The notes below the pieces were generated by a model. That model had not been told where the DNA came from and did no database searches. It worked only from the letters and a program-made list of their open reading frames with translations. Shown piece after piece: positions 17,048 to 64,000 of a stretch of 64,000 nt of DNA. The DNA is from Ilex aquifolium (taxonomy: Eukaryota; Streptophyta; Magnoliopsida; Aquifoliales; Aquifoliaceae), in contig OX637396.1 in assembly GCA_951799425.1 (NCBI GenBank), forward strand, positions 37,874,701 through 37,938,700, read 5' to 3'. A program made the translations under genes and the position numbers. The stretch's first letter is position 1. Every line of letters begins with the position of its first letter.

Positions 17048-17063
17048 GGGGGGGGGGGGGGGG
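17048..17063. repeat. poly-T/poly-G homopolymer junction
   Basis: A T run passes directly into sixteen G residues, immediately before the tandem duplication at 17064. Confidence 0.9.
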
Positions 17064-22442: not shown

Positions 22443-22459
22443 TATTTTATAAGATTTAA

Positions 22460-23298
22460 TTTGCACTTTTAATGTCATTGAATGGTCGCCAAGTGGCCCG
22501 AAAGGTTAACTGCCATTAAGTGATTCCGTGTATTCAAAGATTATTGTGAGGGGCACAAAATAAAATAAAATAAAATAAAAGTGAAAAATATAACAAAATT
22601 TAGTAATTGGATATAATGTTTTAATTATAATTACTATAATTCATTATAATTATTGAATTGACGGTGTATCCAATCAAACTTTTAAATTTGGTGTTACTTC
22701 AACGGTTATAATTAAGTTACATTGGATTAACCGTAGATCCCAATAACATTATTCTTACAATAATTACAGTGAGATATTTTAATTTTTAAAAGTACAAAAT
22801 AAAATTTTTAAATTTCTGGGGTCAAAGCGTCATTTGCCATTTTAAGAAAAGAACGTATTGTGGTGAAAATTTATTGGTCAAAATGGCAGAAATGACCTCA
22901 CTATTTTACCCAATTTATCATTCCAACCTGCCACCGCCTCCTCTTCTCCACTGAAGCCACTAACCACCCTTCACCTTCTCTATTACTCCCCAATTAATTC
23001 ACTCCTCCACATAACTTTAACCCATAATTAGCAATCTTAAACCATCTCAAAACCCAATAACGGCTCTTAATACTTCCTTCAAAACCCCACCACCACCATG
23101 TCTGCCATCTTTAGCAAATTACAAATACACTTATTCACAGAGACCCCAAAACACAAACACAACGTGTTCTTGTGTGTGGATATATATAAGGCATTATTGA
23201 GCTCACATTTCTCAACTAAGTTTAGCAATTTTTTTCTAAAAATGTTGAAAACAGAGCCAAACCAACCCAAACAGAGCCAGAATTAGAATACCCTTAAA
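22460..23298 (+). repeat. upstream block of the peptide-gene unit, copy 1
   Basis: This non-coding block recurs at about 34340-34884 and 40140-40944, in each case upstream of a peptide-gene copy. It includes GGCCCGAAAGGTTAACTGCC, an (AAAAT)n run at about 22560 and a TATA-like GGATATATATAAGG near 23178. Here it is separated from its gene by the hAT insertion at 23299. Confidence 0.75.
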
Positions 23299-25343: not shown

Positions 25344-25612
25344 CCCTTAAACTTTTTAGTCGATATTTACAATCTCTGTGCAATGCTGGAGACATATAGA
25401 GACAGTGTGCCATTTTTGGAACTCCTTTTTTTATCAAACAATGCTTCTGAGTGTGGGTTTGAAGATTGACATTGCAGTTGAACGATCACACAGAAGTAAA
25501 CCCCAAACAATTCTACCTTCTCGTTCTATATATGTGTTTCTATCCACCCAAACCTTAAACTACACCAGCCTTTCTATTTTCCTTCCCCTTCTCTGTTTGA
25601 CACACATATGAT

Positions 25613-25624
25613 ATGGCTTCCTTT

Positions 25625-25657
<33 letters not shown>

Positions 25658-28374: not shown

Positions 28375-28494
28375 TGATTCATTTACTTATCATTTCATAT
28401 GTAGACTGAAAAAATATGAAAATTCATGTATTATTATAATTATGATTTTCAAAATTTTATAGAGTTAAATAAAAATGACATGAAACTTGGGTGA

Positions 28495-28800
28495 AAGTTT
28501 CAATTTTTGAGACATCACTCTGGGGGTCATGGTCCGACATAATATTTGCAATTTTGCAAAATTTTTGCAAAATCACCAAGCAATTTTGCAAAAGTTTTGC
28601 AAAATCCAAACAAACTTTTGCAAAATCACCAAGCAATTCCTCCGCAAAATTGAAGATTGACATTGATACAAATTTCTATCTTTGAGGGTGCAAATTGAGA
28701 TTTTTGATCTTTGGGGATGCACCTTGATACAAATTTCTATCTTTGAGGGTGCAAATTGAGATTCAAACTATCTTTCGGGGTGTAATTTGCAATTAACCCT
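28495..28800. repeat. 3' flank of copy 1 with TTTTGCAAAA words and 60-bp repeats
   Basis: 28545-28625 contains several copies of the palindromic decamer TTTTGCAAAA spaced by ATCACCAAGC or ATCCAAACAAAC. Beyond it GATACAAATTTCTATCTTTG is repeated twice at about 60-bp spacing. The first part is the sequence later amplified in every array monomer. Confidence 0.85.
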
Positions 28801-37883: not shown

Positions 37884-38345
37884 TAATTCTTTTGCTTATC
37901 ATTTCATATGTAGATTGAAAAAATATGAAAATTCATGTATTATCATAATTATGATTTTCAAAATTTTATAGAGCTAAATAAAAATGACATTAAACTTGGG
38001 TGAAAGTTTCAATTTTTGAGACATCACCCTGGGGGTCATGGTCCGACATAACCTTTGCAATTTGCAAAAAATTTGCAAAATCCAAACAAACTTTTGAAAA
38101 ATCACCAAGCAATTCCTCCGCAAAATTGAAGATTGACATTGATACAAATTTCTATCTTTGAGGGTGCAAATTGAGATTTTTGATTTTTGGGGATGCACAT
38201 TGATACAAATTTCTATCTTTGAGGATGCAAATTAAGATTTTTGATCTTTGAGGGTGCAAATTGAGATTCAAACTATCTTTTGAGGTGTAATTTGTAATTA
38301 ACCCTTTTTTTTTTTTTTTTTTTTACCATATTTAGATATTACGTG
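37884..38345. repeat. 3' flank of copy 2, short TTTGCAAAA and GGGTGCAAATTGAG repeats
   Basis: It aligns with 28375-28850, but the TTTTGCAAAA cluster is reduced by deletion. Repeats of GATACAAATTTCTATCTTTG follow, then a T-run, and at about 38358 the sequence joins directly to the promoter of copy 3. Confidence 0.75.
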
Positions 38346-42396: not shown

Positions 42397-42886
42397 ATGG
42401 CTTCCTTCTCTCTCTCTTTCTTGTATTCCTCACATTGCCTGCTGATTCAGAAGCTGTAAATCTTGGTTTTGTTTCTAATGGCTACTAAGATTTATAAGGC
42501 ATTTAAATTTTGGGAAACCTCTTTGTTTACCGTTTTTTGTTCTCCAATTTTTTAGCGTTTTTTGTTCTCCAATTTTTTTAGCGTCTTTGTTCTCATAATT
42601 CTAAAAACAATGAAAGTTGTTTGCTTTGATTTTTTGTTCATCAATTTTCAGAAAAAAGGGAGAAGTAAAGCACAAAAATTGAAAACAAGCCCAGCTTGTA
42701 CTTTATCATGATTTTATTAACAAATTTTATTTTGCTGATTTTTTTGTTTCCTCCTTAACAATCGGAACAAAGTGGTGTGTTATGTTGTGTTTGCTAAGTA
42801 ATTTGTGATATTGTCTGCAGGGCCCTTTTCACCGCCCAGCTCCATGGGCAGTGGAGTATGTAGGGCCTCCATCGCCACCATCGTAG
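42397..42886 (+). pseudogene. peptide gene copy 5, frameshift, missing exon 2 and a stop in exon 3
   Basis: Exon 1 begins at 42397, but its CT repeat is 2 nt out of register, giving a frameshift and a TAA at 42457-42459. Intron 1 is shortened and exon 2 is absent. Exon 3 (from 42821 after CTGCAG) encodes GPFHRPAPWAVEYVGPPSPPS and then has TAG at 42884 in place of the CAG found in other copies. This exon and its 3' flank are the immediate left neighbour, and apparent progenitor type, of the array monomers. Confidence 0.7.
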
Positions 42887-43200
42887 GCAGCTCCACCAGC
42901 ACAGATTAGCTATGTTATTGAGTTTATAAGGAAGGTAGTGTGATGATTCTTTTAATTATCATTTCATATGCAGACTGCAAAAATATGAAAATTCATGTAT
43001 TATTATAATTATGATTTTCAAAATTTTATAGAGTTAAATAAAAATGACATGAAACTTGGGTGAAAGTTTCAATTTTTGAGACATCACTCTGGGGGTCATG
43101 GTCCGACATAATCTTTGCAATTTTGCAAAAATTTTGCAAAATCACCAAACAATTTTGCAAAAGTTTTGCAAAATCCAAACAAACTTTTGCAAAATCACCG

Positions 43201-44069
43201 CCGAGGTCTATGGGTAGTGGAGAATGTACCTCCACTGCCACAGTTCCCCGTGCCTCCATCGCCACCGCCACCATCGCAGACAGCTCCCACCATTGCAGGC
43301 AGCAATACCAACTGCGATACTTATTGCACGTCACATGTGGTTTGGATGATTCTATGCGTATGTGGTGCAGTGGCAGTCCCAAGCATAGCCTGCTATATAC
43401 GCTCAGGTTGTCACCACTGTGCGAGGAGTGGTCAGCTTGACCCGGAGCAGGAGCAGGAGCATGAGAGAGTGACACTGACTCCACACAGGCCGGAGCGTCC
43501 ACACAGGTGGGAGCCTCCACGCTGGCCGGGGCGTCCACACAGGCCGGAGCCAGAGTGGCTTGAGATGGATGAGAGATGCATAACGGCTTGAGATGGAGAT
43601 GCCGGACTGAGCTAGATCCAGATTACGAAGTGGATGGTGAGGACCTCTTAATCCTGTTTAATGAGGAGAAGAGAAAAAGATGAATATGAAAATCATATAA
43701 GAAATCATTTATTCAATATGAGTTTAATGAATATGCAGCTCCACCTGCACAGATTAGCTCTGTTATTGAGTTTATAAGGAAGGCAGTGTCATGATTCTTT
43801 TACTTATCATTTCATATGTAGACTGAAAAAATATGAAAATTCATGTATTATTATAATTATGATTTTCAAAATTTTATAGAATTAAATAAAAATGACATGA
43901 AACTTGGGTGAAAGTTTCAATTTTTGAGACATCACTCTGGGGGTCATGGCCCGACATAATCTTTGCAATTTTGCAAAAATTTTGCAAAATCACCAAGCAA
44001 TTTTGCAAAAGTTTTGCAAAATGCAAACAAACTTTTGCAAAATCCAAACAAACTTTTGCAAAATCACCG
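43201..44069 (+). repeat. monomer 1
   Basis: 869 bp. Insert at 43304-43734 between GCAGC repeats. Exon-derived frame open to TGA at 43589. Confidence 0.9.
43304..43734 (+). other. 431-bp GC-rich insert (first example) with an open frame
   Basis: It is bounded by GCAGC (43299-43303 and 43735-43739) at the point where exon 3 of the parental gene reads GCAGCTCC. In frame with exon 3 it encodes a hydrophobic, Cys-containing segment (VVWMILGVCGAVAVPSIACY, then a C-x-x-C motif), a Glu-Gln tract, and four 18-bp repeats encoding PHRPER-type hexapeptides, ending CITA and stop. A second frame after it reads NGLRWRCWTELDPDYEVDGE. No family is recognised. It could be a captured gene fragment, or an ancestral part of the exon lost from copies 1 and 2. 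Confidence 0.7.
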
Positions 44070-44885
44070 CCGAGGTCTATGGGTAGTGGAGAATGTACCT
44101 CCACTGCCACAGTTCCCGGTGCCTCCATCGCCACCGCCACCATCGCAGACAGCTCCCACCATCGCAGGCAGCAATAGCAACTGCGATACTTATTGCACGT
44201 CACATGTGGTTTGGATGATTCTAGGCGTATGTGGTGCAGTGGCAGTCCCAAGCATAGCCTGCTATATACGCTCAGGTTGTCACGACTGTGCGAGAAGTGG
44301 TCAGCCTGACCCGGAGCAGGAGCAGGAGCATGAGAGAGTGACACTGACTCCACACAGGCCGGAGCGTCCACACAGGTGGGAGCCTCCACGCTGGCCGGGG
44401 GGTCCACACAGGCCGGAGCCAGAGTGGCTTGAGATGGATGAGAGATGCATAACGGCTTGAGATGGAGATGCTGGACTGAGCTAGATCCTGATTACGAAGT
44501 GGATGGTGAGGACCTCTCAATCCTGTTTAATGAGGAGAAGAGAAAAGGATGAATATGAAAAGCATATAGGAAATCATTTATTGAATATGAGTTTAATGAA
44601 TATGCAGCTCCACCTGCACAGATTAGCTCTATTATTGAGTTTATAAGGAAGGCAGTGTGATGATTCTTTTACTTATCATTTCATATGTAGACTGAAAAAA
44701 TATGAAAATTCATGTATTATTATAATTATGATTTTCAAAATTTTATAGAGTTAAATAAAAATGACATGAAACTTGGGTGAAAGTTTCAATTTTTGAGACA
44801 TCACTCTGGGGGTCATGGTCCGACATAATCTTTGCAATTTTGCAAAAATTTTGCAAAATCCAAACAAACTTTTGCAAAATCACCG
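44070..44885 (+). repeat. monomer 2
   Basis: 816 bp. Frame open to 44460. Its right part matches monomer 7 at 4226-bp offset (shared GGCCGGGGGGTCC variant). Confidence 0.9.
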
Positions 44886-45727
44886 CCGAGGTCTGTGGGT
44901 AGTGGAGAATGTACCTCCACTGCCACAGTTCCTCGTGCCTCCATCGCCACCGCCACCATCGCAGACAGCTCCCACCATCGCAGGCAGCAATACCAACTGC
45001 GATACTTATTGCACGTCACATGTGGTTTGGATGATTCTAAGCGTATGTGGTGCAGTGGCAGTCCCAAGCATAGCCTGCTATATACGCTCAGGTTGTCACC
45101 ACTGTGCGAGGAGTGGTCAGCCTGACCCGGAGCAGGAGCATGAGAGAGTGACACTGACTCCACACAGGCCGGAGCGTCCACACAGGTGTGAGCCTCCACG
45201 CTGGCCGGGGCGTCCACACAGGCCGGAGCCAGAGTGGCTTGAGAGGGATGAGAGATGCATAACGGCTTGAGATGGAGATGCTGGACTGAGCTAGATCCTG
45301 ATTACGAAGTGGATGGTGAGGACCTCTTAATCCTGTTTAATGAGAAGAAGAGAAAAGGATGAATATGAAAAGCATATAGGAAATCATTTATTCAATATGA
45401 GTTTAATGAATATGCAGCTCCACCTGCACAGATTAGCTCTGTTATTGAGTTTATAAGGAAGACAGTGTAATGATTCTTTTACTTATCATTTCATATGTAG
45501 ACTGAAAAAATAAGAAAATTCATGTATTATTATAATTATGATTTTCAAAATTTTATAGAGTTAAATAAAAATGACATGAAACTTGGGTGAAAGTTTCAAT
45601 TTTTGAGACATCACTCTGGGGGTCATGGTCCGACATAATCCTTGCAATTTTGCAAAAATTTTGCAAAATTACCAAGCAATTTTGCAAAAGTTTTGCAAAA
45701 TCCAAACAAACTTTTGCAAAATCACCG
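44886..45727 (+). repeat. monomer 3
   Basis: 842 bp. Twin of monomer 8. Frame open to 45270. Only one GAGCAG before GAGCAT. Confidence 0.9.
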
Positions 45728-46593
45728 CCGAGGTCTATGGATAGTAGAGAATGTACCTTCACTGCACAAGTTCCCCGTGCCTCCATCGCCACCGCCACCG
45801 CCACCATCGCAGACAGCTCGCACCATCGCAGGCAGCAATACCAACTGCGATACTTATTGCACGTCACATGTGGTTTGGATGATTCTAGGCGTATGTGGTG
45901 CAGTGGCAGTCCCAAGCATAGCCTGCTATATACGCTCAGGTTGTCACCACTGTGCGAGGAGTGGACAGCCTGACCCGGAGCAGGAGCAGGAGCAGGAGCA
46001 GGAGCATGAGAGAGTGACACTGACTCCACACAGGCCGGAGCGTCCACACAGGTGGGAGCCTCCACGCTGGCCGGGGCGTCCACACAGGCCGGAGCCAGAG
46101 TGGCTTGAGATGGATGAGAGATGCATAACGGCTTGAGATGGAGATGCTGGACTGAGCTAGATCCTGATTACGAAGTGGATGGTGAGGACCTCTCAATCCT
46201 GTTTAATGAGGAGAAGAGAAAAGGATGAATATGAAAAGCATATAGGAAATCATTTATTCAATATGAGTTTAATGAATATGCAGCTCCACCTGCACAGATT
46301 AGCTCTTTTATTGAGTTTATAAGGAAGGCAGTGTGATGATTCTTTTACTTATCATTTCATATGTAGACTGAAAAAATATGAAAATTCATGTTTTATTATA
46401 ATTATGATTTTCAAAATTTTATAGAGTTAAATAAAAATGACATGAAACTTGGGTGAAAGTTTCAATTTTTGAGACGTCACTCTGGGGGTCATGGTCCGAC
46501 ATAATCTTTGCAATTTTGCAAAAGTTTTGCAAAATCACCAAACAATTTTGCAAAAGTTTTGCAAAATCCAAACAAACTTTTGCAAAATCACCG
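45728..46593 (+). repeat. monomer 4
   Basis: 866 bp. Twin of monomer 9. Carries extra CCGCCA and GAGCAG hexamers, all frame-neutral. Frame open to 46136. Confidence 0.9.
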
Positions 46594-47426
46594 CCGAGGT
46601 CTATGGGGGATAATGTACCTCCACTGCCACAGTCCCCCGTGCCTCCATCGCCACCGCCACCATCGCAGACAGCTCCCTCCATCGCAGGCAGCAATACCAA
46701 CTGCGATACTTATTGCACGTCACATATGGTTTGGATGATTCTAGGCGTATGTGGTGCAGTGGCAGTCCCAAGCATAGCCTGCTATATACGCTCAGGTTGT
46801 CACCACTGTGTGAGGAGTGGTCAGCCTGACCCGGAGCAGGAGCAGGAGCATGAGAGAGTGACACTGACTCCACACAGGCCGGAGCGTCCACACAGGTGGG
46901 AGCCTCCACGCTGGCCGGGGCGTCCACATAGGCCGGAGCCAGAGTGGCTTGAGATGGATGAGAGATGCATAACGGCTTGAGATGGAGATGCTGGACTGAG
47001 CTAGATCCTGATTACGAAGTGGATGGTGAGGACCTCTCAATCCTGTTTAATGAGGAGAAGAGAAAAGGATGAATATGAAAAGCATATAGGAAATCATTTA
47101 TTGAATATGAGTTTAATGAATATGCAGCTCCACCTGCACAGATTAGCTCTATTATTGAGTTTACAAGGAAGGCAGTGTGATGATTCTTTTACTTATCATT
47201 TCATATGTAGACTGAAAAAATAAGAAAATTCATGTATTATTATAATTACGATTTTCAAAATTTTATAGAGTTAAATAAAAATGACATGAAACTTGGGTGA
47301 AAGTTTCAATTTTTGAGACATCACTCTGGGGGTCATGGTCCGACATAATCTTTGCAATTTTGCAAAACTTTTGCAAAATCCAAACAAACTTTTGCAAAAT
47401 CCAAACTAACTTTTGCAAAATCACCG
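46594..47426 (+). repeat. monomer 5
   Basis: 833 bp. Twin of monomer 10. A net 4-nt loss just after CTATGGG shifts the exon-derived N-terminal frame; the downstream frame is open to 46980. Confidence 0.9.
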
Positions 47427-48295
47427 CCGAGGTCTATGGGTAGTGGAGAATGTACCTCCACTGCCACAGTTCCCCGTGCCTCCATCGCCACCGCCACCAT
47501 CGCAGACAGCTCCCACCATCGCAGGCAGCAATACCAACTGCGATACTTATTGCACGTCACATGTGGTTTGGATGATTCTAGGCGTATGTGGTGCAGTGGC
47601 AGTCCCAAGCATAGCCTGCTATATACGCTCAGGTTGTCAACACTGTGCGAGGAGTGGTCAGCCTGACCCGGAGCAGGAGCAGGTGCATGAGAGAGTGACA
47701 CTGACTCCACACAGGCCGGAGCGTCCACACAGGTGGGAGCCTCCACGCTGGCCGGGGCGTCCACACAGGCCGGAGCCAGAGTGGCTTGAGATGGATGATA
47801 GATGCATAACGGCTTGAGATGGAGATGCTGGACTGAGCTAGATCCTGATTACGAAGTGGATGGTGAGGACCTCTTAATCCTGTTTAATGAGGAGAAGAGA
47901 AAAGGATGAATATGAAAAGCATATAGGAAATCATTTATTCAATATGAGTTTAATGAATATGCAGCTCCACCTGCACAGATTAGCTCTGTTATTGAGTTTA
48001 TAAGGAAGGCAGTGTAATGATTCTTTTACTTATCATTTCATATGTAGACTGAAAAAATATGAAAATTCATGTATTATTATAATTATGATTTTCAAAATTT
48101 TATAGAGTTAAATAAAAATGACATGAAACTTGGGTGAAAGTTTCAATTTTTGAGACATCACTCTGGGGGTCATGGTCCGACATAATCTTTGCAATTTTGC
48201 AAAAGTTTTGCAAAATCACCAAGCAATTTTGTAAAAGTTTTGCAAAATCCAAACAAACTTTTGCAAAATCCAAACTAACTTTTGCAAAATCACCG
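47427..48295 (+). repeat. monomer 6
   Basis: 869 bp. Near-twin of monomers 11 and 13 (GAGCAGGTGCATG variant). Frame open to 47817. Confidence 0.9.
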
Positions 48296-49111
48296 CCGAG
48301 GTCTATGGGTAGTGGAGAATGTACCTCCACTGCCACAGTTCCCCGTGCCTCCATCGCCACCGCCACCATCGCAGACAGCTCCCACCATCGCAGGCAGCAA
48401 TATCAACTGCGATACTTATTGCACGTCACATGTGGTTTGGATGATTCTAGGCGTATGTGGTGCAGTGGCAGTCCCAAGCATAGCCTGTTATATACGCTCA
48501 GGTTGTCACCACTGTGCGAGTAGTGGTCAGCCGGAGCAGGAGCAGGAGCAGGAGCATGAGAGAGTGACACTGACTCCACACAGGCCGGAGCGTCCACACA
48601 GGTGGGAGCCTCCACGCTGGCCGGGGGGTCCACACAGGCCGGAGCCAGAGTGGCTTGAGATGGATGAGAGATGCATAACGGCTTGAGATGGAGATGCTGG
48701 ACTGAGCTAGATCCTGATTACGAAGTGGATGGTGAGGACCTCTCAATCCTGTTTAATGAGGAGAAGAGAAAAGGATGAATATGAAAAGCATATAGGAAAT
48801 CATTTATTGAATATGAGTTTAATGAATATGCAGCTCCACCTGCACAGATTAGCTCTATTATTGAGTTTATAAGGAAGGCAGTGTGATGATTCTTTTACTT
48901 ATCATTTCATATGTAGACTGAAAAAATATGAAAATTCATGTATTATTATAATTATGATTTTCAAAATTTTATAGAGTTAAATAAAAATGACATGAAACTT
49001 GGGTGAAAGTTTCAATTTTTGAGACATCACTCTGGGGGTCATGGTCCGACATAATCTTTGCAATTTTGCAAAAATTTTGCAAAATCCAAACAAACTTTTG
49101 CAAAATCACCG
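48296..49111 (+). repeat. monomer 7
   Basis: 816 bp. Left part resembles monomers 12 and 14 (AATATCAAC, GCGAGTAGTGG); right part matches monomer 2. It looks like a recombinant. Frame open to 48686. Confidence 0.9.
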
Positions 49112-49953
49112 CCGAGGTCTGTGGGTAGTGGAGAATGTACCTCCACTGCCACAGTTCCTCGTGCCTCCATCGCCACCGCCACCATCGCAGACAGCTCCCA
49201 CCATCGCAGGCAGCAATACCAACTGCGATACTTATTGCACGTCACATGTGGTTTGGATGATTCTAAGCGTATGTGGTGCAGTGGCAGTCCCAAGCATAGC
49301 CTGCTATATACGCTCAGGTTGTCACCACTGTGCGAGGAGTGGTCAGCCTGACCCGGAGCAGGAGCATGAGAGAGTGACACTGACTCCACACAGGCCGGAG
49401 CGTCCACACAGGTGTGAGCCTCCACGCTGGCCGGGGCGTCCACACAGGCCGGAGCCAGAGTGGCTTGAGAGGGATGAGAGATGCATAACGGCTTGAGATG
49501 GAGATGCTGGACTGAGCTAGATCCTGATTACGAAGTGGATGGTGAGGACCTCTTAATCCTGTTTAATGAGAAGAAGAGAAAAGGATGAATATGAAAAGCA
49601 TATAGGAAATCATTTATTCAATATGAGTTTAATGAATATGCAGCTCCACCTGCACAGATTAGCTCTGTTATTGAGTTTATAAGGAAGACAGTGTAATGAT
49701 TCTTTTACTTATCATTTCATATGTAGACTGAAAAAATAAGAAAATTCATGTATTATTATAATTATGATTTTCAAAATTTTATAGAGTTAAATAAAAATGA
49801 CATGAAACTTGGGTGAAAGTTTCAATTTTTGAGACATCACTCTGGGGGTCATGGTCCGACATAATCCTTGCAATTTTGCAAAAATTTTGCAAAATTACCA
49901 AGCAATTTTGCAAAAGTTTTGCAAAATCCAAACAAACTTTTGCAAAATCACCG
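49112..49953 (+). repeat. monomer 8
   Basis: 842 bp. Twin of monomer 3. Frame open to 49496. Confidence 0.9.
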
Positions 49954-50819
49954 CCGAGGTCTATGGATAGTAGAGAATGTACCTTCACTGCACAAGTTCC
50001 CCGTGCCTCCATCGCCACCGCCACCGCCACCATCGCAGACAGCTCGCACCATCGCAGGCAGCAATACCAACTGCGATACTTATTGCACGTCACATGTGGT
50101 TTGGATGATTCTAGGCGTATGTGGTGCAGTGGCAGTCCCAAGCATAGCCTGCTATATACGCTCAGGTTGTCACCACTGTGCGAGGAGTGGACAGCCTGAC
50201 CCGGAGCAGGAGCAGGAGCAGGAGCAGGAGCATGAGAGAGTGACACTGACTCCACACAGGCCGGAGCGTCCACACAGGTGGGAGCCTCCACGCTGGCCGG
50301 GGCGTCCACACAGGCCGGAGCCAGAGTGGCTTGAGATGGATGAGAGATGCATAACGGCTTGAGATGGAGATGCTGGACTGAGCTAGATCCTGATTACGAA
50401 GTGGATGGTGAGGACCTCTCAATCCTGTTTAATGAGGAGAAGAGAAAAGGATGAATATGAAAAGCATATAGGAAATCATTTATTCAATATGAGTTTAATG
50501 AATATGCAGCTCCACCTGCACAGATTAGCTCTTTTATTGAGTTTATAAGGAAGGCAGTGTGATGATTCTTTTACTTATCATTTCATATGTAGACTGAAAA
50601 AATATGAAAATTCATGTTTTATTATAATTATGATTTTCAAAATTTTATAGAGTTAAATAAAAATGACATGAAACTTGGGTGAAAGTTTCAATTTTTGAGA
50701 CGTCACTCTGGGGGTCATGGTCCGACATAATCTTTGCAATTTTGCAAAAGTTTTGCAAAATCACCAAACAATTTTGCAAAAGTTTTGCAAAATCCAAACA
50801 AACTTTTGCAAAATCACCG
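49954..50819 (+). repeat. monomer 9
   Basis: 866 bp. Twin of monomer 4. Frame open to 50362. Confidence 0.9.
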
Positions 50820-51684
50820 CCGAGGTCTATGGGGGATAATGTACCTCCACTGCCACAGTCCCCCGTGCCTCCATCGCCACCGCCACCATCGCAGACAGCT
50901 CCCTCCATCGCAGGCAGCAATACCAACTGCGATACTTATTGCACGTCACATATGGTTTGGATGATTCTAGGCGTATGTGGTGCAGTGGCAGTCCCAAGCA
51001 TAGCCTGCTATATACGCTCAGGTTGTCACCACTGTGTGAGGAGTGGTCAGCCTGACCCGGAGCAGGAGCAGGAGCATGAGAGAGTGACACTGACTCCACA
51101 CAGGCCGGAGCGTCCACACAGGTGGGAGCCTCCACGCTGGCCGGGGCGTCCACATAGGCCGGAGCCAGAGTGGCTTGAGATGGATGAGAGATGCATAACG
51201 GCTTGAGATGGAGATGCTGGACTGAGCTAGATCCTGATTACGAAGTGGATGGTGAGGACCTCTCAATCCTGTTTAATGAGGAGAAGAGAAAAGGATGAAT
51301 ATGAAAAGCATATAGGAAATCATTTATTGAATATGAGTTTAATGAATATGTAGCTCCACCTGCACAGATTAGCTCTATTATTGAGTTTACAAGGAAGGCA
51401 GTGTGATGATTCTTTTACTTATCATTTCATATGTAGACTGAAAAAATAAGAAAATTCATGTATTATTATAATTACGATTTTCAAAATTTTATAGAGTTAA
51501 ATAAAAATGACATGAAACTTGGGTGAAAGTTTCAATTTTTGAGACATCACTCTGGGGGTCATGGTCCGACATAATCTTTGCAATTTTGCAAAACTTTTGC
51601 AAAATCACCAAGCAATTTTGCAAAAGTTTTGCAAAATCCAAACAAACTTTTGCAAAATCCAAACTAACTTTTGCAAAATCACCG
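50820..51684 (+). repeat. monomer 10
   Basis: 865 bp. Twin of monomer 5 with the same 4-nt loss. It is 32 bp longer at its right end because a TTTTGCAAAA subrepeat is retained. Confidence 0.9.
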
Positions 51685-52553
51685 CCGAGGTCTATGGGTA
51701 GTGGAGAATGTACCTCCACTGCCACAGTTCCCCGTGCCTCCATCGCCACCGCCACCATCGCAGACAGCTCCCACCATCGCAGGCAGCAATACCAACTGCG
51801 ATACTTATTGCACGTCACATGTGGTTTGGATGATTCTAGGCGTATGTGGTGCAGTGGCAGTCCCAAGCATAGCCTGCTATATACGCTCAGGTTGTCAACA
51901 CTGTGCGAGGAGTGGTCAGCCTGACCCGGAGCAGGAGCAGGTGCATGAGAGAGTGACACTGACTCCACACAGGCCGGAGCGTCCACACAGGTGGGAGCCT
52001 CCACGCTGGCCGGGGCGTCCACACAGGCCGGAGCCAGAGTGGCTTGAGATGGATGATAGATGCATAACGGCTTGAGATGGAGATGCTGGACTGAGCTAGA
52101 TCCTGATTACGAAGTGGATGGTGAGGACCTCTTAATCCTGTTTAATGAGGAGAAGAGAAAAGGATGAATATGAAAAGCATATAGGAAATCATTTATTCAA
52201 TATGAGTTTAATGAATATGCAGCTCCACCTGCACAGATTAGCTCTGTTATTGAGTTTATAAGGAAGGCAGTGTAATGATTCTTTTACTTATCATTTCATA
52301 TGTAGACTGAAAAAATATGAAAATTCATGTATTATTATAATTATGATTTTCAAAATTTTATAGAGTTAAATAAAAATGACATGAAACTTGGGTGAAAGTT
52401 TCAATTTTTGAGACATCACTCTGGGGGTCATGGTCCGACATAATCTTTGCAATTTTGCAAAAGTTTTGCAAAATCACCAAGCAATTTTGCAAAAGTTTTG
52501 CAAAATCCAAACAAACTTTTGCAAAATCCAAACTAACTTTTGCAAAATCACCG
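51685..52553 (+). repeat. monomer 11
   Basis: 869 bp. Twin of monomer 13 at 1744-bp offset and near-twin of monomer 6. Frame open to 52075. Confidence 0.9.
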
Positions 52554-52790
52554 CCGAGGTCTATGGGTAGTGGAGAATGTACCTCCACTGCCACAGTTCC
52601 CCGTGCCTCCATCGCCACCGCCACCATCGCAGACAGCTCCCACCATCGCAGGCAGCAATATCAACTGCGATACTTATTGCACGTCACATGTGGTTTGGAT
52701 GATTCTAGGCGTATGTGGTGCAGTGGCAGTCCCAAGCATAGCCTGTTATATACGCTCAGGTTGTCACCACTGTGCGAGTAGTGGTCAGCC

Positions 52791-52824
<34 letters not shown>

Positions 52825-53428
52825 AGAGTGACACTGACTCCACACAGGCCGGAGCGTCCACACAGGTGGGAGCCTCCACGCTGGCCGGGGCGTCCACACA
52901 GGCCGGAGCCAGAGTGGCTTGAGATGGGTGAGAGATGTATAACGACTTGAGATGGAGATGCTGGACTGAGCTAGATCCTGATTACGTAGTGGACGGTGAG
53001 GACCTCTCAATCCTGTTTAATGAGGAGAAGAGAAAAGGATGAATATGAAAAGCATATAGGAAATCATTTATTGAATATGAGTTTAATGAATATGCAGCTC
53101 CAACTGCACAGATTAGCTCTGTTATTGAGTTTATAAGGAAGGCAGTGTGATGATTCTTTTACATATCATTTCATATGTAGACTGAAAAAATATGAAAATT
53201 CATGTATTATTATAATTACGATTTTCAAAATTTTATAGAGTTAAATAAAAATGACATGAAACTTGGGTGAAAGTTTCAATTTTTGAGACATCACTCTGGG
53301 GGTCATGGTCCGACATAATCTTTGCAATTTTGCAAAACTTTTGCAAAATCACCAAGCAATTTTGCAAAAGTTTTGCAAAATCCAAACAAACTTTTGCAAA
53401 ATCCAAACTAACTTTTGCAAAATCACCG
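52554..53428 (+). repeat. monomer 12
   Basis: 875 bp. Twin of monomer 14, which has one more GAGCAG. Frame open to 52950. Confidence 0.9.
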
Positions 53429-54297
53429 CCGAGGTCTATGGGTAGTGGAGAATGTACCTCCACTGCCACAGTTCCCCGTGCCTCCATCGCCACCGCCACC
53501 ATCGCAGACAGCTCCCACCATCGCAGGCAGCAATACCAACTGCGATACTTATTGCACGTCACATGTGGTTTGGATGATTCTAGGCGTATGTGGTGCAGTG
53601 GCAGTCCCAAGCATAGCCTGCTATATACGCTCAGGTTGTCAACACTGTGCGAGGAGTGGTCAGCCTGACCCGGAGCAGGAGCAGGTGCATGAGAGAGTGA
53701 CACTGACTCCACACAGGCCGGAGCGTCCACACAGGTGGGAGCCTCCACGCTGGCCGGGGCGTCCACACAGGCCGGAGCCAGAGTGGCTTGAGATGGATGA
53801 TAGATGCATAACGGCTTGAGATGGAGATGCTGGACTGAGCTAGATCCTGATTACGAAGTGGATGGTGAGGACCTCTTAATCCTGTTTAATGAGGAGAAGA
53901 GAAAAGGATGAATATGAAAAGCATATAGGAAATCATTTATTCAATATGAGTTTAATGAATATGCAGCTCCACCTGCACAGATTAGCTCTGTTATTGAGTT
54001 TATAAGGAAGGCAGTGTAATGATTCTTTTACTTATCATTTCATATGTAGACTGAAAAAATATGAAAATTCATGTATTATTATAATTATGATTTTCAAAAT
54101 TTTATAGAGTTAAATAAAAATGACATGAAACTTGGGTGAAAGTTTCAATTTTTGAGACATCACTCTGGGGGTCATGGTCCGACATAATCTTTGCAATTTT
54201 GCAAAAGTTTTGCAAAATCACCAAGCAATTTTGCAAAAGTTTTGCAAAATCCAAACAAACTTTTGCAAAATCCAAACTAACTTTTGCAAAATCACCG
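53429..54297 (+). repeat. monomer 13
   Basis: 869 bp. Twin of monomer 11. Frame open to 53819. Confidence 0.9.
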
Positions 54298-54534
54298 CCG
54301 AGGTCTATGGGTAGTGGAGAATGTACCTCCACTGCCACAGTTCCCCGTGCCTCCATCGCCACCGCCACCATCGCAGACAGCTCCCACCATCGCAGGCAGC
54401 AATATCAACTGCGATACTTATTGCACGTCACATGTGGTTTGGATGATTCTAGGCGTATGTGGTGCAGTGGCAGTCCCAAGCATAGCCTGTTATATACGCT
54501 CAGGTTGTCACCACTGTGCGAGTAGTGGTCAGCC

Positions 54535-54574
<40 letters not shown>

Positions 54575-55157
54575 AGAGTGACACTGACTCCACACAGGCC
54601 GGAGCGTCCACACAGGTGGGAGCCTCCACGCTGGCCGGGGCGTCCACACAGGCCGGAGCCAGAGTGGCTTGAGATGGGTGAGAGATGTATAACGACTTGA
54701 GATGGAGATGCTGGACTGAGCTAGATCCTGATTACGTAGTGGACGGTGAGGACCTCTCAATCCTGTTTAATGAGGAGAAGAGAAAAGGATGAATATGAAA
54801 AGCATATAGGAAATCATTTATTGAATATGAGTTTAATGAATATGCAGCTCCAACTGCACAGATTAGCTCTGTTATTGAGTTTATAAGGAAGGCAGTGTGA
54901 TGATTCTTTTACATATCATTTCATATGTAGACTGAAAAAATATGAAAATTCATGTATTATTATAATTATGATTTTCAAAATTTTATAGAGTTAAATAAAA
55001 ATGACATGAAACTTGGGTGAAAGTTTCAATTTTTGAGACATCACTCTGGGGGTCATGGTCCGACATAATCTTTGCAATTTTGCAAAAGTTTTGCAAAATC
55101 ACCAAGCAATTTTGCAAAAGTTTTGCAAAATCCAAACAAACTTTTGCAAAATCACCG
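54298..55157 (+). repeat. monomer 14
   Basis: 860 bp. Twin of monomer 12. It has the longest GAGCAG tract of the array. Frame open to 54700. Confidence 0.9.
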
Positions 55158-56019
55158 CCGAGGTCTATGGGTAGTGGAGAATGTACCTCCACTGCCACAG
55201 TTCCCCGTGACTCCATCGCCACCGCCACCATCGCAGGCAGCAATACCAACTGCGATACTTATTGCACGTCACATGTGGTTTGGATGATTCTAGGCGTATG
55301 TGGTGCAGTGGCAGTCCCAAGCATAGCCTGCTATATACGCTCAGGTTGTCACCACTGTGCGAGGAGTGGTTAGCCTGACCCGGAGCAGGAGCAGGAGCAG
55401 GAGCAGGAGCATGAGAGAGTGACACTGACTCCACACAGGCCGGAGCGTCCACACAGGTGGGATCCTCTACGCTGGCCGGGGCGTCCACACAGGGCGGAGC
55501 CAGAGTGGCTTGAGATGGATGAGAGATGCATAACGGCTTGAGATGGAGATGCTGGACTGAGCTAGATCCTGATTACGAAGTGGATGGTGAGGACCTCTTA
55601 ATCCTGTTTAATGAGGAGAAGGGAAAAGGATGAATATGAAAAGCATATAGGAAATCATTTATTCAATATGAGTTTAATGAATATGCAGCTCCACCTGCAC
55701 ATATTAGCTCTGTTATTGAGTTTAAAAGGAAGGCAGTGTAATGATTCTTCTACTTATCATTTCATATGTAGACTGAAAAAATATGAAAATTCATGTATTA
55801 TTATAATTATGATTTTCAAAATTTTATAGAGTTAAATAAAAATGACATGAAACTTGGGTGAAAGTTTCAATTTTTGAGACATCACTCTGGGGGTCATGGT
55901 CCGACATAATCTTTGCAATTTTGCAAAAATTTTGCAAAATCACCAAGCAATTTTGCAAAAGTTTTGGAAAATCCAAACAAACTTTTGCAAAATCCAAACA
56001 AACTTTTGCAAAATCACCG
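55158..56019 (+). repeat. monomer 15 (type A, frame broken)
   Basis: 862 bp. A 19-nt deletion between CACCATCGCAG repeats shifts the frame, which then stops at TAG (GAGTGGTTAG). Shares CCCCGTGACTCC, GAAGGGAAAAGG and CACATATTAGC with monomers 17 and 19. Confidence 0.9.
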
Positions 56020-56873
56020 CCGAGGTCTATGGGTAGTGGAGAATGTACCTCCACTGCCACAGTTCCCCGTGCCTCCATCGCCACCGCCACCGCCACCATC
56101 GCAGACAGCTCCCACCATCGCAGGCAGCAATACCAACTGCGATACTTATTGCACGTCACATGTGGTTTGGATGATTCTAGGCGTATGTGGTGCAGTGGCA
56201 GTCCCCAGCATAGCCTGCTATATACGCTCAGGTTGTCACCACTGTGCGAGGAGTGGTCAGCCTGACCCGGAGCAGGAGCAGGAGCATGAGAGAGTGACAC
56301 TAACTCCACACAGGCCGGAGCGTCCACACAGGTGGGAGCCTCCACGCTGGCCGGGGCGTCCACACAGGCCGGAGCCAGAGTGGCTTGAGATGGATGATAG
56401 ATGCATAACGGCTTGAGATGGAGATGCTGGACTGAGCTAGATCCTGATTACGAAGTGGATGGTGAGGACCTCTTAATCCTGTTTAATGAGGAGAAGAGAA
56501 AAGGATGAATATGAAAAGCATATAGGAAATCATTTATTCAATATGAGTTTAATGAATATGCAGCTCCACCTGCATAGATTAGCTCTGTTATTGAGTCTAT
56601 AAGGAAGGCAGTGTAATGATTCTTTTACTTATCATTTCATATGTAGACTGAAAAAATATGAAAATTCATGTATTATTATAATTATGATTTTCAAAATTTT
56701 ATAGAGTTAAATAAAAATGACATGAAACTTGGGTGAAAGTTTCAATTTTTGAGACATCACTCTGGGGGTCATGGTCCGACATAATCTTTGCAATTTTGAA
56801 AAAATTTTGCAAAATCACCAATCAATTTTGCAAAAGTTTTGCAAAATCCAAACAAACTTTTGCAAAATCACCG
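56020..56873 (+). repeat. monomer 16
   Basis: 854 bp. Frame open to 56416. Extra CCGCCA hexamer. Confidence 0.9.
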
Positions 56874-57723
56874 CCGAGGTCTATGGGTAGTGGAGAATGT
56901 ACCTCCACTGCCATAGTTCCCCGTGACTCCATCGCCACCGCCACCAACGCAGGCAGTAATACCAACTGCGATACTTATTGCACGTCACATGTGGTTTGGA
57001 TGATTCTAGGCGTATGTGGTGCAGTGGCAGTCCCAAGCATAGCCTGCTATATACGCTCAGGTTGTCACCACTGTGCGAGGAGTGGTTAGCCTGACCCGGA
57101 GCAGGAGCAGGAGCATGAGAGAGTGACACTGACTCCACACAGGCCGGAGTGTCCACACAGGTGGGAGCCTCTACGCTGGCCGGGGCGTCCACACAGGCCG
57201 GAGCCAGAGTGGCTTGAGATGGATGAGAGATGCATAACGGCTTGAGATGGAGATGCTGGACTGAGCTAGATCCTGATTACGAAGTGGATGGTGAGGACCT
57301 CTTAATCCTGTTTAATGAGGAGAAGGGAAAAGGATGAATATGAAAAGCATATAGAAAATCATTTATTCAATATGAGTTTAATGAATATGCAGCTCCACCT
57401 GCACATATTAGCTCTGTTATTGAGTTTAAAAGGAAGGCAGTGTAATGATTCTTCTACTTATCATTTCATATGTAGACTGAAAAAATATGAAAATTCATGT
57501 ATTATTATAATTATGATTTTCAAAATTTTATAGAGTTAAATAAAAATGACATGAAACTTGGGTGAAAGTTTCAATTTTTGAGACATCACTCTAGGGGTCT
57601 TGTTCGGACATAATCTTTGCAATTTTGTAAAAAATTTGCAAAATCACCAAGCAATTTTGCAAAAGTTTTGCAAAATCCAAACAAACTTTTGCAAAATCCA
57701 AACAAACTTTTGCAAAATCACCG
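56874..57723 (+). repeat. monomer 17 (type A, frame broken)
   Basis: 850 bp. Same 19-nt deletion. Variants CCATAGTTCC and CCACCAACGCAGG link it to monomer 25. Confidence 0.9.
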
Positions 57724-58571
57724 CCGAGGTCTATGGGTAGTGGAGAATGTACCTCCACTGCCACAGTTCCCCGTGCCTCCATCGCCACCGCCACCATCGC
57801 AGACAGCTCCAACCATCGCAGGCAGCAATACCAACTGCGATACTTATTGCACCTCACATGTGGTTTGGATGATTCTAGGTGTATGTGGTGCAGTGGCAGT
57901 CCCAAGCATAGCCTGTTATATACGCTCAGGTTGTCACCACTGTGCGAGGAGTGGTCAGCCTGACCCGGAGCAGGAGCAGGAGCATGAGAGAGTGACACTG
58001 ACTCCACACAGGCCGGAGCGTCCACACAGGTGGGAGCCTCCACGTTGGCCGGGGCGTCCACACAGGCCGGAGCCAGAGTGGCTTGAGATGGATGAGAGAT
58101 GCATAACGGCTTGAGATGGAGATACTGGACTGAGCTAGATCCTGATTACGAAGTGGATGGTGATGACCTCTCAATCCTGTTTAATGAGGAGAAGAGAAAA
58201 GGATGAATATGAAAATCAGATAGGAAATCATTTATTCAATATGAGTTTAATGAATATGCAGCTCCACCTGCACAGATTAGCTCTGTTATTGAGTTTATAA
58301 GGAAGGCAGTGTGATGATTCTTTTACATATCATTTCATATGTAGACTGAAAAAATATGAAAATTCATGTATTATTATAATTATGATTTTCAAAATTTTAT
58401 AGAGTTAAATAAAAATGACATGAAACTTGGGTGAAAGTTTCAATTTTTGAGACATCACTCTGGGGGTCATGGTCCGACATAATCTTTGCAATTTTGCAAA
58501 AGTTTTGCAAAATCACCAAGCAATTTTGCAAAAGTTTTGCAAAATCCAAACAAACTTTTGCAAAATCACCG
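57724..58571 (+). repeat. monomer 18 (type B)
   Basis: 848 bp. Frame open to 58114. Variant CCACGTTGGCC is shared with monomers 20 and 24. Confidence 0.9.
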
Positions 58572-59400
58572 CCGAGGTCTATGGGTAGTGGAGAATGTAC
58601 CTCCACTGCCACAGTTCCCCGTGACTCCATCGCCACCGCCACCATCGCAGGCAGCAATACCAACTGCGATACTTATTGCACGTCACATGTGGTTTGGATG
58701 ATTTTAGGCGTATGTGGTGCAGTGGCAGTCCCAAGCATAGCCTGCTATATACGCTCAGGTTGTCACCACTGTGCGAGGAGTGGTTAGCCTGACCCGGAGC
58801 AGGAGCAGGAGCATGAGAGAGTGATACTGACTCCACACAGGCCGGAGCGTCCACACAGGTGGGAGCCTCTACGCTGGCCGGGGCGTCCACACAGGCCGGA
58901 GCCAGAGTGGCTTGAGATGGATGAGAGATGCATAACGGCTTGAGATGGAGATGCTGGACTGAGCTAGATCCTGATTACGAAGTGGATGGTGAGGACCTCT
59001 TAATCCTGTTTAATGAGGAGAAGGGAAAAGGATGAATATGAAAAGCATATAGGAAATCATTTATTCAATATGAGTTTAATGAATATGCAGCTCCACCTGC
59101 ACATATTAGCTCTGTTATTGAGTTTAAAAGGAAGGCAGTGTAATGATTCTTTTACTTATCATTTCATATGTAGACTGAAAAAATATGAAAATTCATGTAT
59201 TATTATAATTATGATTTTCAAAATTTTATAGAGTTAAATAAAAATGACATGAAACTAGGGTGAAAGTTTCAATTTTTGAGACATCACTCTGGGGGTCATG
59301 GTCCGACATAATCTTTGCAATTTTGCAAAAATTTTGCAAAATCACCAAGCAATTTTGCAAAAGTTTTGCAAAATCCAAACAAACTTTTGCAAAATCACCG
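58572..59400 (+). repeat. monomer 19 (type A, frame broken)
   Basis: 829 bp. Same 19-nt deletion as monomers 15, 17 and 25. Confidence 0.9.
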
Positions 59401-60248
59401 CCGAGGTCTATGGGTAGTGGAGAATGTACCTCCACTGCCACAGTTCCCCGTGCCTCCATCGCCACCGCCACCATCGCAGACAGCTCCCACCATCGCAGGC
59501 AGCAATACCAACTGCGATACTTATTGCACCTCACATGTGGTTTGGATGATTCTAGGCGTATGTGGTGTAGTGGCAGTCCCAAGCATAGCCTGCTATATAC
59601 GCTCAGGTTGTCACCACTGTGCGAGGAGTGGTCAGCTTGACCCGGAGCAGGAGCAGGAGCATGAGAGAGTGACACTGACTCCACACAGGCCGGAGCGTCC
59701 ACACAGGTGGGAGCCTCCACGTTGGCCGGGGCGTCCACACAGGTCGGAGCCAGAGTGGCTTGAGATGGATGAGAGATGCATAACGGCTTGAGATGGAGAT
59801 GCTGGACTGAGCTAGATCCTGATTACGAAGTGGATGGTGAGGACCTCTTAATCCTGTTTAATGAGGATAAGAGAAAAGGATGAATATGAAAAGCATATAG
59901 GAAATCATTTATTCAATATGAGTTTAATGAATATGCAGCTCCACCTGCACGGATTAGCTCTGTTATTGAGTTTATAAGGAAGGCAGTGTAATGATTCTTT
60001 TACTTATCATTTCCTATGTAGACTGAAAAAATATGAAAATTCATGTATTATTATAATTATGATTTTCAAAATTTTATAGAGTTAAATAAAAATGACATGA
60101 AACTTGGGTGAAAGTTTCAATTTTTGAGACATCACTCTGGGGGTCATGGTCCGACATAATCTTTGCAATTTTGCAAAAGTTTTGCAAAATCACCAAGCAA
60201 TTTTGCAAAAGTTTTGCAAAATCCAAACAAACTTTTGCAAAATCACCG
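59401..60248 (+). repeat. monomer 20 (type B)
   Basis: 848 bp. Frame open to 59791. Shares GCACCTCACATG with monomer 18. Confidence 0.9.
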
Positions 60249-60496
60249 CGGAGGTCTATGGGTAGTGGAGAATGTACCTCCACTGCCACAGTTCCCCGTG
60301 CCTGCATCGCCACCGCCACCATCGCAGACAGCTCCCACCATCGCAGACAGCAATATCAACTGCGATACTTATTGCACGTCACATGTGGTTTGGATGATTC
60401 TAGGCGTATGTGGTGCAGTGGCAGTCCCAAGCATAGCCTGCTATATACGCTCAGGTTGTCACCACTGTGCGAGGAGTGGTCAGCCTGACCCGGAGT

Positions 60497-60527
<31 letters not shown>

Positions 60528-61140
60528 TGAGCATGAGAGAGTGACACTGACTCCACACAGGCCGGAGCGTCCACACAGGTGGGAGCCTCCACGCTGGCCG
60601 GGGCGTCCACACAGGCCGGAGCCAGAGTGGCTTGAGATGGATGAGAGATGTATAACGGCTTGAGATGGAGATGCTGGACTGAGCTAGATCCTGATTACGA
60701 AGTGGATGGTGAGGACCTCTCAATTTTTTTAATGAGGAGAAGAGAAAAGGATGAATATGAAAAGCATATAGGAAATCATTTATTGAATATGAGTTTAATG
60801 AATATGCAGCTCCACCTGCACAGATTAGCTCTATTATTGAGTTTATAAGGAAGGCAGTGTGATGATTCTTTTACTTATCATTTCATATGTAGACTGAAAA
60901 AATATGAAAATTCATGTATTATTATAATTATGATTTTCAAAATTTTATAGAGTTAAATAAAAATGACATGAAACTTGGGTGAAAGTTTCAATTTTTGAGA
61001 CATCACTCTGGGGGTCATGTTCCGACATAATCTTTGCAATTTTGCAAAAGTTTTGCAAAATCACCAAGCAATTTTGCAAAAGTTTTGCAAAATCCAAACA
61101 AACTTTTGCAAAATCCAAACAAATTTTTGCAAAATCACCG
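60249..61140 (+). repeat. monomer 21 (nonsense)
   Basis: 892 bp, the longest. Starts CGGAGG. A CAG to TAG change at the head of the Glu-Gln tract (about 60496) ends the frame. Confidence 0.9.
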
Positions 61141-61999
61141 CCGAGGTCTATGGGTAGTGGAGAATGTACCTCCACTGCCACAGTTCCCCGTGCCTCCATC
61201 GCCACCGCCACCATCGCAGACAGCTCCCACCATCGCAGGCAGCAATACCAACTGCGATACTTATTGCACGTTACATGTGGTTTGGATGATTCTAGGCGTA
61301 TGTGGTGCAGTGGCAGTCCCAAGCATAGCCTACTATATACGCTCAGGTTGTCACCACTGTGCGAGGAGTGGTCAGCCTGACCCGGAGTAGGAGCAGGAGC
61401 AGGAGCAGGAGCATGAGAGAGTGACACTGACTCCACACAGGCCGGAGCGTCCACACAGGTTGGAGCCTCCACGCTGGCAGGGGAGTCCACACAGGCCGGA
61501 GCCAGAGTGGCTTGAGATGGATGAGAGATGCATAACGGCTTGAGATGGAGATGCTGGACTGAGCTAGATCCTGATTACGAAGTGGATGGTGAGGACCTCT
61601 CAATCCTGTTTAATGAGGATAAGAGAAAAGGATAAATATGAAAAGAATATAGGAAATCATTTATTGAATATGAGTTTAATGAATATGCAGCTCCACCTGC
61701 ACAGATTAGCTCTGTTATTGAGTTTATAAGGAAGGCAGTGTGATGATTCTTTTACTTATCATTCCATATGTAGACTGAAAAAATATGAAAATTCATGTAT
61801 TATTATAATTATGATTTTCAAAATTTTATAGAGTTAAATAAAAATGACATGAAACTTGGGTGAACTTTTCAATTTTTGAGACATCACTCTGGGGGTCATG
61901 GTCCGACATAATCTTTGCAATTTCCAAAAATTTTGCAAAATCACCAAGCAATTTTGCAAAAGTTTTGCAAAATCCAAACAAACTTTTGCAAAATCACCG
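61141..61999 (+). repeat. monomer 22 (nonsense)
   Basis: 859 bp. Carries the same CAG to TAG change as monomer 21 (about 61388). Confidence 0.9.
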
Positions 62000-62867
62000 C
62001 CGAGGTCTATGGGTAGTGGAGAATGTACCTCCACTGCCACAGTTCCCCGTGCCTCCATCGCCACCGCCACCATCGCAGACAGCTCCCACCATCGCAGACA
62101 GCAATACCAACTGCGATACTTATTGCACGTCACGTGTGGTTTGGATGATTCTAGGCGTATGTGGTGCAGTGGCAGTCCCAAGCATAGCCTGCTATATACG
62201 CTCAGGTTGTCACCACTGTGCGAGGAGTGGTCAGCCTGACCCGGAGCAGGAGCAGGAGCATGAGAGAGTGACACTGACTCCACACAGGCCGGAGCGTCCA
62301 CACAGGTGGGAGCCTCCACGCTGGCAGGGGCGTCCACACAGGCCGGAGCCAGAGTGGCTTGAGATGGATGAGAGATGCATAACGGCTTGAGATGGAGATG
62401 CTGGACTGAGCTAGATCCTTATTACGAAGTGGATGGTGAGGACCTCTCAATTTTTTTAATGAGGAGAAGAGAAAAGGATGAATATGAAAAGCATATAGGA
62501 AATCATTTATTCAATATGAGTTTAATGAATATGCAGCTCCACCTGCACATATTAGCTCTGTTATTGAGTCTATAAGGAAGGCAGTGTAATGATTCTTTTA
62601 CTTATCATTTCATATGTAGACTGAAAAAATATGAAAATTCATGTATTATTATAATTATGATTTTCAAAATTTTATAGAGTTAAATAAAAATGACATGAAA
62701 CTTGGCTGAAAGTTTCAATTTTTGAGACATCACTCTGGGGGTCATGGTCCGACATAATCTTTGCAATTTTGCAAAAGTTTTGCAAAATCACCAAGCAATT
62801 TTATAAAAGTTTTGCAAAATCCAAACAAACTTTTGCAAAATCCAAACAAACTTTTGCAAAATCACCG
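62000..62867 (+). repeat. monomer 23
   Basis: 868 bp. Frame open to 62390. Confidence 0.9.
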
Positions 62868-63715
62868 CCGAGGTCTATGGGTAGTGGAGAATGTACCTCC
62901 ACTGCCACAGTTCCCCGTGCCTCCATCGCCACCGCCACCATCGCAGACAGCTCCCACCATCGCAGGCAGCAATACCAACTGCGATACTTATTGCACGTCA
63001 CATGTGGTTTGGATGATTCTAGGCGTATGTGGTGCAGTGGCAGTCCCAAGCATAGCCTGTTATATACGCTCAGGTTGTCACCACTGTGCGAGGAGTGGTA
63101 AGCCTGACCCGGAGCAGGAGCAGGAGCATGAGAGAGTGACACTGACTCCACACAGGCCGGAGCGTCCACACAGGTGGGAGCCTCCACGTTGGCCGGGGCG
63201 TCCACACAGGCCGGAGCCAGAGTGGCTTGAGATGGATGAGAGATGCATAACGGCTTGAGATGGAGATGCTGGACTGAGCTAGATCCTTATTACGAAGTGG
63301 ATGGTGAGGACCTCTCAATCCTGTTTAATGAGGAGAAGAGAAAAGGATGAATATGAAAATCATATAGGAAATCATTTATTCAATATGAGTTTAATGAATA
63401 TGCAGCTCCACCTGCACAGATTAGGTCTGTTATTGAGTTTATAAGGAAGGCAGTGTGATGATTCTTTTACATATCATTTCATATGTAGACTGAAAAAATA
63501 TGAAAATTCATGTATTATTATAATTATGATTTTCAAAATTTTATAGAGTTAAATAAAAATGACATGAAACTTGGGTGAAAGTTTCAATTTTTGAGACATC
63601 ACTCTGGGGGTCATGGTCCGACATAATCTTTGCAATTTTGCAAAAATTTTGCAAAATCACCAATCAATTTTGCAAAAGTTTTGCAAAATCCAAACAAACT
63701 TTTGCAAAATCACCG
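62868..63715 (+). repeat. monomer 24 (type B)
   Basis: 848 bp. Frame open to 63258. Resembles monomer 18. Confidence 0.9.
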
Positions 63716-64000
63716 CCGAGGTCTATGGGTAGTGGAGAATGTACCTCCACTTCCATAGTTCCCCGTGACTCCATCGCCACCGCCACCAACGCAGGCAGCA
63801 ATACCAACTGCGATACTTATTGCACGTCACATGTGGTTTGGATGATTCTAGGCGTATGTGGTGCAGTTGCAGTCCCAAGCATAGCCTGCTATATACGCTC
63901 AGGTTGTCACCACTGTGCGAGGAGTGGTTAGCCTGACCCGGAGCAGGAGCAGGAGCATGAGAGAGTGACACTGACTCCACACAGGCCGGAGTGTCCACAC
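63716..64000 (+). repeat. monomer 25 (type A, truncated by window edge)
   Basis: Only 285 bp visible. It has the 19-nt deletion and resembles monomer 17 at 6842-bp offset. Confidence 0.9.

Follow-up and report, generated by a model that had tools for sequence, protein, structure and literature searches.

A gene-derived, macrosatellite-like tandem array at a single locus of Ilex aquifolium

Satellites seeded from rDNA spacers and from transposons are already described (PMC5615363), so arrays of the general kind reported here are known. In rDNA-spacer satellites (tomato, PMC2679016; review, PMC5615363), as in the holly array below, a tandem repeat has grown from part of a gene locus; in transposon-derived satellites (PMC6947457; PMC12628747), part of a longer element has likewise become a head-to-tail array. 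The macrosatellites D4Z4 and DXZ4 (PMC8122249) resemble it in another way, with a large unit present in tens to hundreds of copies at one or a few loci. How satellite arrays start is usually hidden because homogenisation erases the founders. In the holly array the order of the single-copy parts, the joining sequences and an independent array in a paralogue are all readable. We analysed a 64,000-nucleotide stretch of holly DNA (the window, C6:37874701-37938700) and ran genome-wide searches over the 800.23-Mb assembly of 103 contigs, in which C6 has 42,839,052 bases and C7, the contig with the paralogue, 42,798,602.

A single array on contig C6

Self-alignment of the window revealed 25 head-to-tail monomers, with periods of 816–892 bp and pairwise identities of 95.2–100%:

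43194 to 64000, forward strand: array part inside the window, monomers M01 to M25 (the last cut by the window end), from the monomer alignment.

The original prediction of a tandem array of ~0.85-kb monomers from ~43196 to the window end is thus borne out, and the array proved far longer than the window. It extends rightward to occupy C6:37917894-38060286, ~142 kb with about 165 monomers. Among 20 samples of 400 bases taken right of the window, 9 matched the array, up to C6:38060001; the other 11, from C6:38070001 to 39000400, had no array match.

Each monomer is made of two halves, A and B. We searched the whole assembly for the A-to-B junction (J1, at most 2 mismatches) and the B-to-A junction (J2, at most 1 mismatch). 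J1 was found at 165 places and J2 at 163, all forward, so the two counts agree; the reversed patterns, used as a control, had 0 matches in the whole assembly. All the junction matches listed (the best 100 of 165 and 100 of 163) lie inside the C6 array, and the remaining 65 J1 and 63 J2 places are about what the rest of the array (~56 kb) requires. A protein search of the genome with the array frame gave 195 candidates, and all 150 that were scored fall in this one array. The genome search for other loci thus returned no second array, either among the junction matches listed or among the scored candidates, and the sites seen elsewhere among the matches listed were gene pieces only.

The ~165 units over 142 kb are near-identical: the mean pairwise identity of 83 contiguous monomers is 97.5%. 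Thirteen pairs among these 83 reach at least 99.6% identity. All lie within 9 units of each other and they occur only at lags of 2, 5, 6, 7, 8 and 9, a pattern of homogenisation by local exchange and higher-order blocks. One recent block is seen in the window:

44063 to 52546, forward strand: recent duplication of block M02-M06 to M07-M11, 4226 bp, from monomer identities.

In this block M03/M08 and M04/M09 are 100% identical, M05/M10 and M06/M11 99.9%, and M02/M07 99.0%; M11/M13 are also 100% identical. Identical units of this sort would be expected if the copy number were a product of the assembly and the true array shorter or longer. The mean identity of 97.5% over the 83 contiguous units argues against this, as does the assembly itself, which, if it is that of PMC11109700, was made from HiFi reads with hifiasm and has a contig N50 of 15.2 Mb. 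We consider an assembly product unlikely.

The source gene family and the anatomy of the monomer

The consensus of the 83 contiguous monomers is 848 bp long, with 307 bp in half A (consensus 542-848) and 541 bp in half B. Half A matches the 3' end of exon 3 and the following sequence in three gene copies of the window:

25613 to 28630, forward strand: gene copy 1, with exon 1 (a TC-repeat change breaks the frame), exon 2, exon 3 (28252-28335) and an intron-3-like A segment.
35145 to 38104, forward strand: gene copy 2, with a signal-peptide exon (35145-35213), exon 2 (35939-35980), exon 3 (37761-37844) and an A-like segment; exon limits set by eye.
42397 to 42904, forward strand: gene copy 5, a pseudogene, with exon 1 frameshifted and exon 3, from 42821, carrying an in-frame TAG.

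Gene models, introns and splice sites were inferred from DNA sequence alone. On these models, the source family appears to consist of small genes of a secreted or membrane type, with a signal peptide, proline-rich exons 2 and 3, and a membrane exon 4. Upstream of copy 1 exon 1 there is also an insertion of ~2.04 kb (23291-25352), flanked by 9-bp direct repeats CCCTTAAAC; copy 2 keeps the uninterrupted counterpart of this site at 34877. The insertion may be a GGCC-rich DNA transposon, which its ends resemble.

A paralogue on C7 shows the gene in the order exon 1 (MASF... signal peptide), exon 2, four exon 3 units and exon 4. Exon 4 encodes GLYVIYRGGSNTNSGIAISQLAWTILGVCAALAVPGIVYYMYSGQ... in phase and sits behind an intron with a splice acceptor. 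The gene is damaged: a stop codon closes exon 2, and of the four exon 3 acceptors two are altered. One more exon 3 piece lies upstream of it. The repeated part is:

L010 5930-8388: exon 3 plus intron, four times in tandem in the C7 paralogue; spacing 783–798 bp, A parts differing by 2.9–4.6%.

On this reading of the locus, the same segment of the gene formed a small tandem array of its own at C7, independent of that on C6. The A segments of the C6 copies diverge from those of the C7 units by 7–12%. We also considered C6 and C7 as partners of a whole-genome duplication. The single marker gene, a 280-codon open frame at 2775-3614 whose product we take to be an AT-hook nuclear protein, has its closest listed paralogue on C5 (87%), with no C7 paralogue among those listed; we therefore call C7 only a paralogue.

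We aligned the monomers to copies 1, 2 and 5, a comparison that would cover the whole unit if, as predicted, the monomer were the 3' part of exon 3 plus its 3' flank. Only consensus 1-48, 69-94 and 542 to the end were covered. Positions 1-48 are ~80% like the 5' part of exon 3, and 69-94 match exon 3 better; from ~95 to 541 there was no match in the gene copies of the window apart from a 17-bp word at 94-110. The predicted composition thus stands for the half A region and fails for half B, about half of the monomer. Even for half A, "3' flank" needs rewording. In copy 2 and the C7 units, exon 3 ends in GCACAG/GTTAGC or in variants that also carry the GT; the same position in copies 1, 5 and the array reads CAGATTAGC, a broken donor. 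Because the paralogues keep a splice donor at the exon 3 end, the sequence behind it reads as intron 3, and half A as the last part of exon 3 followed by intron 3.

Half B was traced outside the window. It matches the terminal membrane exon at C7:6304329, C6:38136282 and C15:25117171, with 64–75% DNA identity over consensus ~105-385:

43194 to 43734, forward strand: first half B, with an exon-3-like 5' part, GGCAGC, terminal membrane exon, tail and 3' sequence; 131-codon open frame.

In half B, then, an exon-3-like part runs with no intervening intron into the terminal membrane-spanning exon, its tail and 3' sequence, the fusion sitting at a GGCAGC shared by the two exons. The membrane exon, tail and 3' sequence, absent from the predicted composition, have no counterpart in copies 1, 2 and 5 within the window. 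A Pfam search with two monomer frames found no family. As half B lacks intron 3, we considered a retroposed (spliced mRNA) origin; a deletion seems preferable because exons 3 and 4 share GGCAGC at the join and because the first 24 bases that exon 4 has at C7 are missing from B. An insertion with target-site duplication, based on GCAGCTCCACC-like words flanking the middle of the monomer, was dropped once exon 4 had been found.

The homology to exon 3, intron 3 and exon 4 supports the descent of the array from the small peptide gene family. In the opposite relation, the monomer would be an old dispersed satellite from which the gene exon was later derived as a fragment. We found no support for this: copies 1, 2, 5 and the C7 gene provide a single-copy source with predicted introns; self-comparison of the window showed that gene units share sequence beyond the monomer's ends on both sides, and far beyond them; exon 4 at C7 lies behind an intron with an acceptor; and the monomer forms one array among the matches listed, not a widespread older satellite. 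We regard this relation as extremely improbable.

The window holds two further repeat structures. At 10500-11573 and 21534-22447, long inverted-repeat arms (71–172 bp, 81–93% complementary) surround GGT/CCA-rich simple repeats, which suggests copies of one dispersed element in opposite orientation. At 17058-17393, a 168-bp unit is duplicated in tandem with 95% identity.

Edges of the array and its founding

We wondered whether the two ends of the array retain its starting structure. The relevant features are:

42887 to 43199, forward strand: A0, putative founder half A, single copy, exon 3 3' end plus intron 3, from alignment and left-edge comparison.
43195 to 43199, forward strand: J1, TCACC common to intron 3 and exon 3, joining A to B; from sequence and 165 assembly places.
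43711 to 43734, forward strand: J2 filler, 24 bp, tandem-duplication junction from B to the next A; from sequence, assembly pattern search and edge comparison.

At the left edge, copy 5 exon 3 runs into A0, J1 and the first B without any J2, and array sequence is left exactly at GCAGCTCC. At the right edge, the last B tracks the array to ...GGAAATCATTT and gives way to unique DNA exactly where inner units start the J2 filler. At E 0.001, the DNA past this edge matched neither the left part of the window nor 30 kb around the C7 gene nor the C6 and C15 exon 4 loci. J1 would therefore predate the amplification and J2 would have founded the array. The single-copy ancestor was probably A-B, and its two halves appear to survive at the two edges of the array.

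As predicted, the left edge merges into copy 5 exon 3. That copy 5 is the progenitor holds in part: it adjoins the left edge and supplies half A, but the counterpart for half B lies 142 kb away at the right edge. Nor is copy 5 the closest by sequence, since the array A consensus differs from copy 1 by 0.98% but from copy 5 (A0) by 2.28%. In half A, 6 states unite the array with copy 1 to the exclusion of copy 5 (unpolarised counts), and 2 unite it with copy 5 to the exclusion of copy 1; the outgroups show these 2 to be changes private to copy 1. Copy 1 was rejected as the direct parent: it is closer in sequence yet not adjacent to the array. Thus, because array A is closer to copy 1 than to the adjacent copy 5, sequence alone does not single out copy 5 as the parent; its position at the left edge does.

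The J2 filler looks partly copied from nearby sequence. Of its 24 bases, 20 are covered by words of at least 7 bases that also occur in the 150 bp flanking it on either side, a coverage equalled by 0.9% of shuffled fillers (P=0.009) and by 0.9% of other window positions. The longest single match, 9 bp, is weaker evidence when taken alone, as 8.7% and 3.2% do as well (P=0.03–0.09). A filler copied from nearby sequence is a hallmark of polymerase-theta-type end joining. The two older joins carry microhomology of 5–6 bp (TCACC and GGCAGC).

If the edge halves are founders, they may be expected to stand apart from the inner units. The last B is 2.5% from the monomer consensus, compared with a mean of 1.40% (sd 0.43, range 0.7–2.7) for the 83 inner monomers, only one of which is as far from the consensus; the first inner monomer is ordinary (1.5%). 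The divergence of the edge halves is thus at the high end of the inner range yet inside it, and lends weak support to founder status. The founding argument comes from edge geometry, not from edge divergence.

Taken together, these observations suggest the following steps. First, exon 3 would have been fused to exon 4 via GGCAGC, with loss of intron 3. Second, the fused exon would have been joined via TCACC to intron 3 behind copy 5 exon 3, which would leave one A-B module whose splice donor is dead and which lacks an acceptor. Third, as read from the edges, end joining with a 24-bp, probably locally templated filler would have linked the end of B to the middle of exon 3 and made the first tandem copy. 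Fourth, as the identity pattern suggests, local exchange of blocks of ~2–9 monomers would have enlarged and homogenised the array to ~165 copies and 142 kb; it would now drift as non-coding tandem DNA, most likely without function. We put the probability of this reading, in which a worn-out member of the gene family was rearranged stepwise, end joining at J2 founded the array, and local blocks expanded a most likely functionless product, at roughly 0.75. Whether the locus is a complete record of a satellite's birth, with two microhomology joins, one templated end-joining founder, both halves kept and a gene segment prone to tandem repetition, we hold to be an even bet. Tandem multiplication of the source segment is seen in the C7 paralogue too, which may point to such a proneness.

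The same edges (A0 on the left, B on the right) and the same single J2 are predicted if A-B was excised as an extrachromosomal circle, closed at J2, copied by rolling circle and returned to the A-B locus by homologous recombination; plant satellites have been surveyed as circles (PMC2543021). However, this route needs more steps, and plain unequal exchange explains why near-identical blocks sit close together, all 13 pairs lying within 9 of 83 units. We see the circle as possible but rather doubtful, and prefer founding by end joining in place.

Coding potential and comparison with known systems

Could the repeated unit still be a coding cassette that provides alternative last exons, a membrane anchor for upstream peptide genes? 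The 131-codon frame continues the frame of exon 3 and, by a loose end-motif test, reaches the tail in 54 of the 83 monomers; 17 of the 150 scored genome hits (195 candidates; frameshifts not counted) have a stop in the aligned stretch. On the other side, the frame starts without an ATG, the splice acceptor that would precede it was removed at J1, and both its diversity (0.0245 in the frame, 0.0263 outside) and its substitution pattern are near neutral. With near-duplicates dropped, 71 of the 83 monomers carry 57 synonymous, 146 nonsynonymous and 8 stop changes (48.1, 151.4 and 11.6 expected; synonymous 57 of 211 against the null of 48.1, P=0.08). The outcome was similar for 19 of the 25 window monomers (21, 48 and 3; P=0.10). 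Indel types divisible by 3 number 7 of 14 in the frame and 1 of 14 outside. These hints of constraint, in synonymous changes and indel lengths, are partly explained by hexamer repeats and slippage. Thus, the frame seems to be under no clear selection, and since it lacks both ATG and acceptor, coding by the array is unlikely; a working cassette of last exons is very improbable, and the array probably has no function.

On the minus strand of 43194-64000, open frames of about 90–209 codons cross many monomers; they probably arise simply because the sequence is GC-rich and derived from coding DNA. The C>T rates in the monomers gave no clear sign of strong CG decay that would indicate methylation: the rate per CG site per monomer (0.0079) is not raised over CHH (0.0124) or CHG (0.0128), yet C>T is seen at 20 of 44 CG sites versus 82 of 255 CHH sites.

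The holly feature is a macrosatellite-like array of gene origin at a single locus, and its founding steps can be read unusually well. Among the papers covered on gene- or exon-derived plant satellites we found no matching case, which is no proof of absence. In contrast to the rDNA-spacer satellites, its source is the exons and intron of a small protein gene, at one locus and with founder halves apparently kept at both edges; in contrast to the transposon-derived satellites, its unit has halves that match exons and an intron of a gene. A gene-derived frame is present in D4Z4 as well. Unlike D4Z4 and DXZ4, the holly unit measures 0.85 kb, its frame is broken in many copies and there is no evidence of function. 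The closest likeness in kind of segment is within the family: the C7 units consist of the same exon 3 and intron segment, in 0.78–0.80-kb units, four in a row inside a gene, but they number only four and lack the membrane exon. Because the single-copy order, the joins and the paralogue array can be read, the steps from gene to array are testable in related hollies. For the specialist, the value of the locus beside the known systems lies in its exon and intron source, the founder halves apparently kept at its edges and, in a paralogue, a small array that arose independently.
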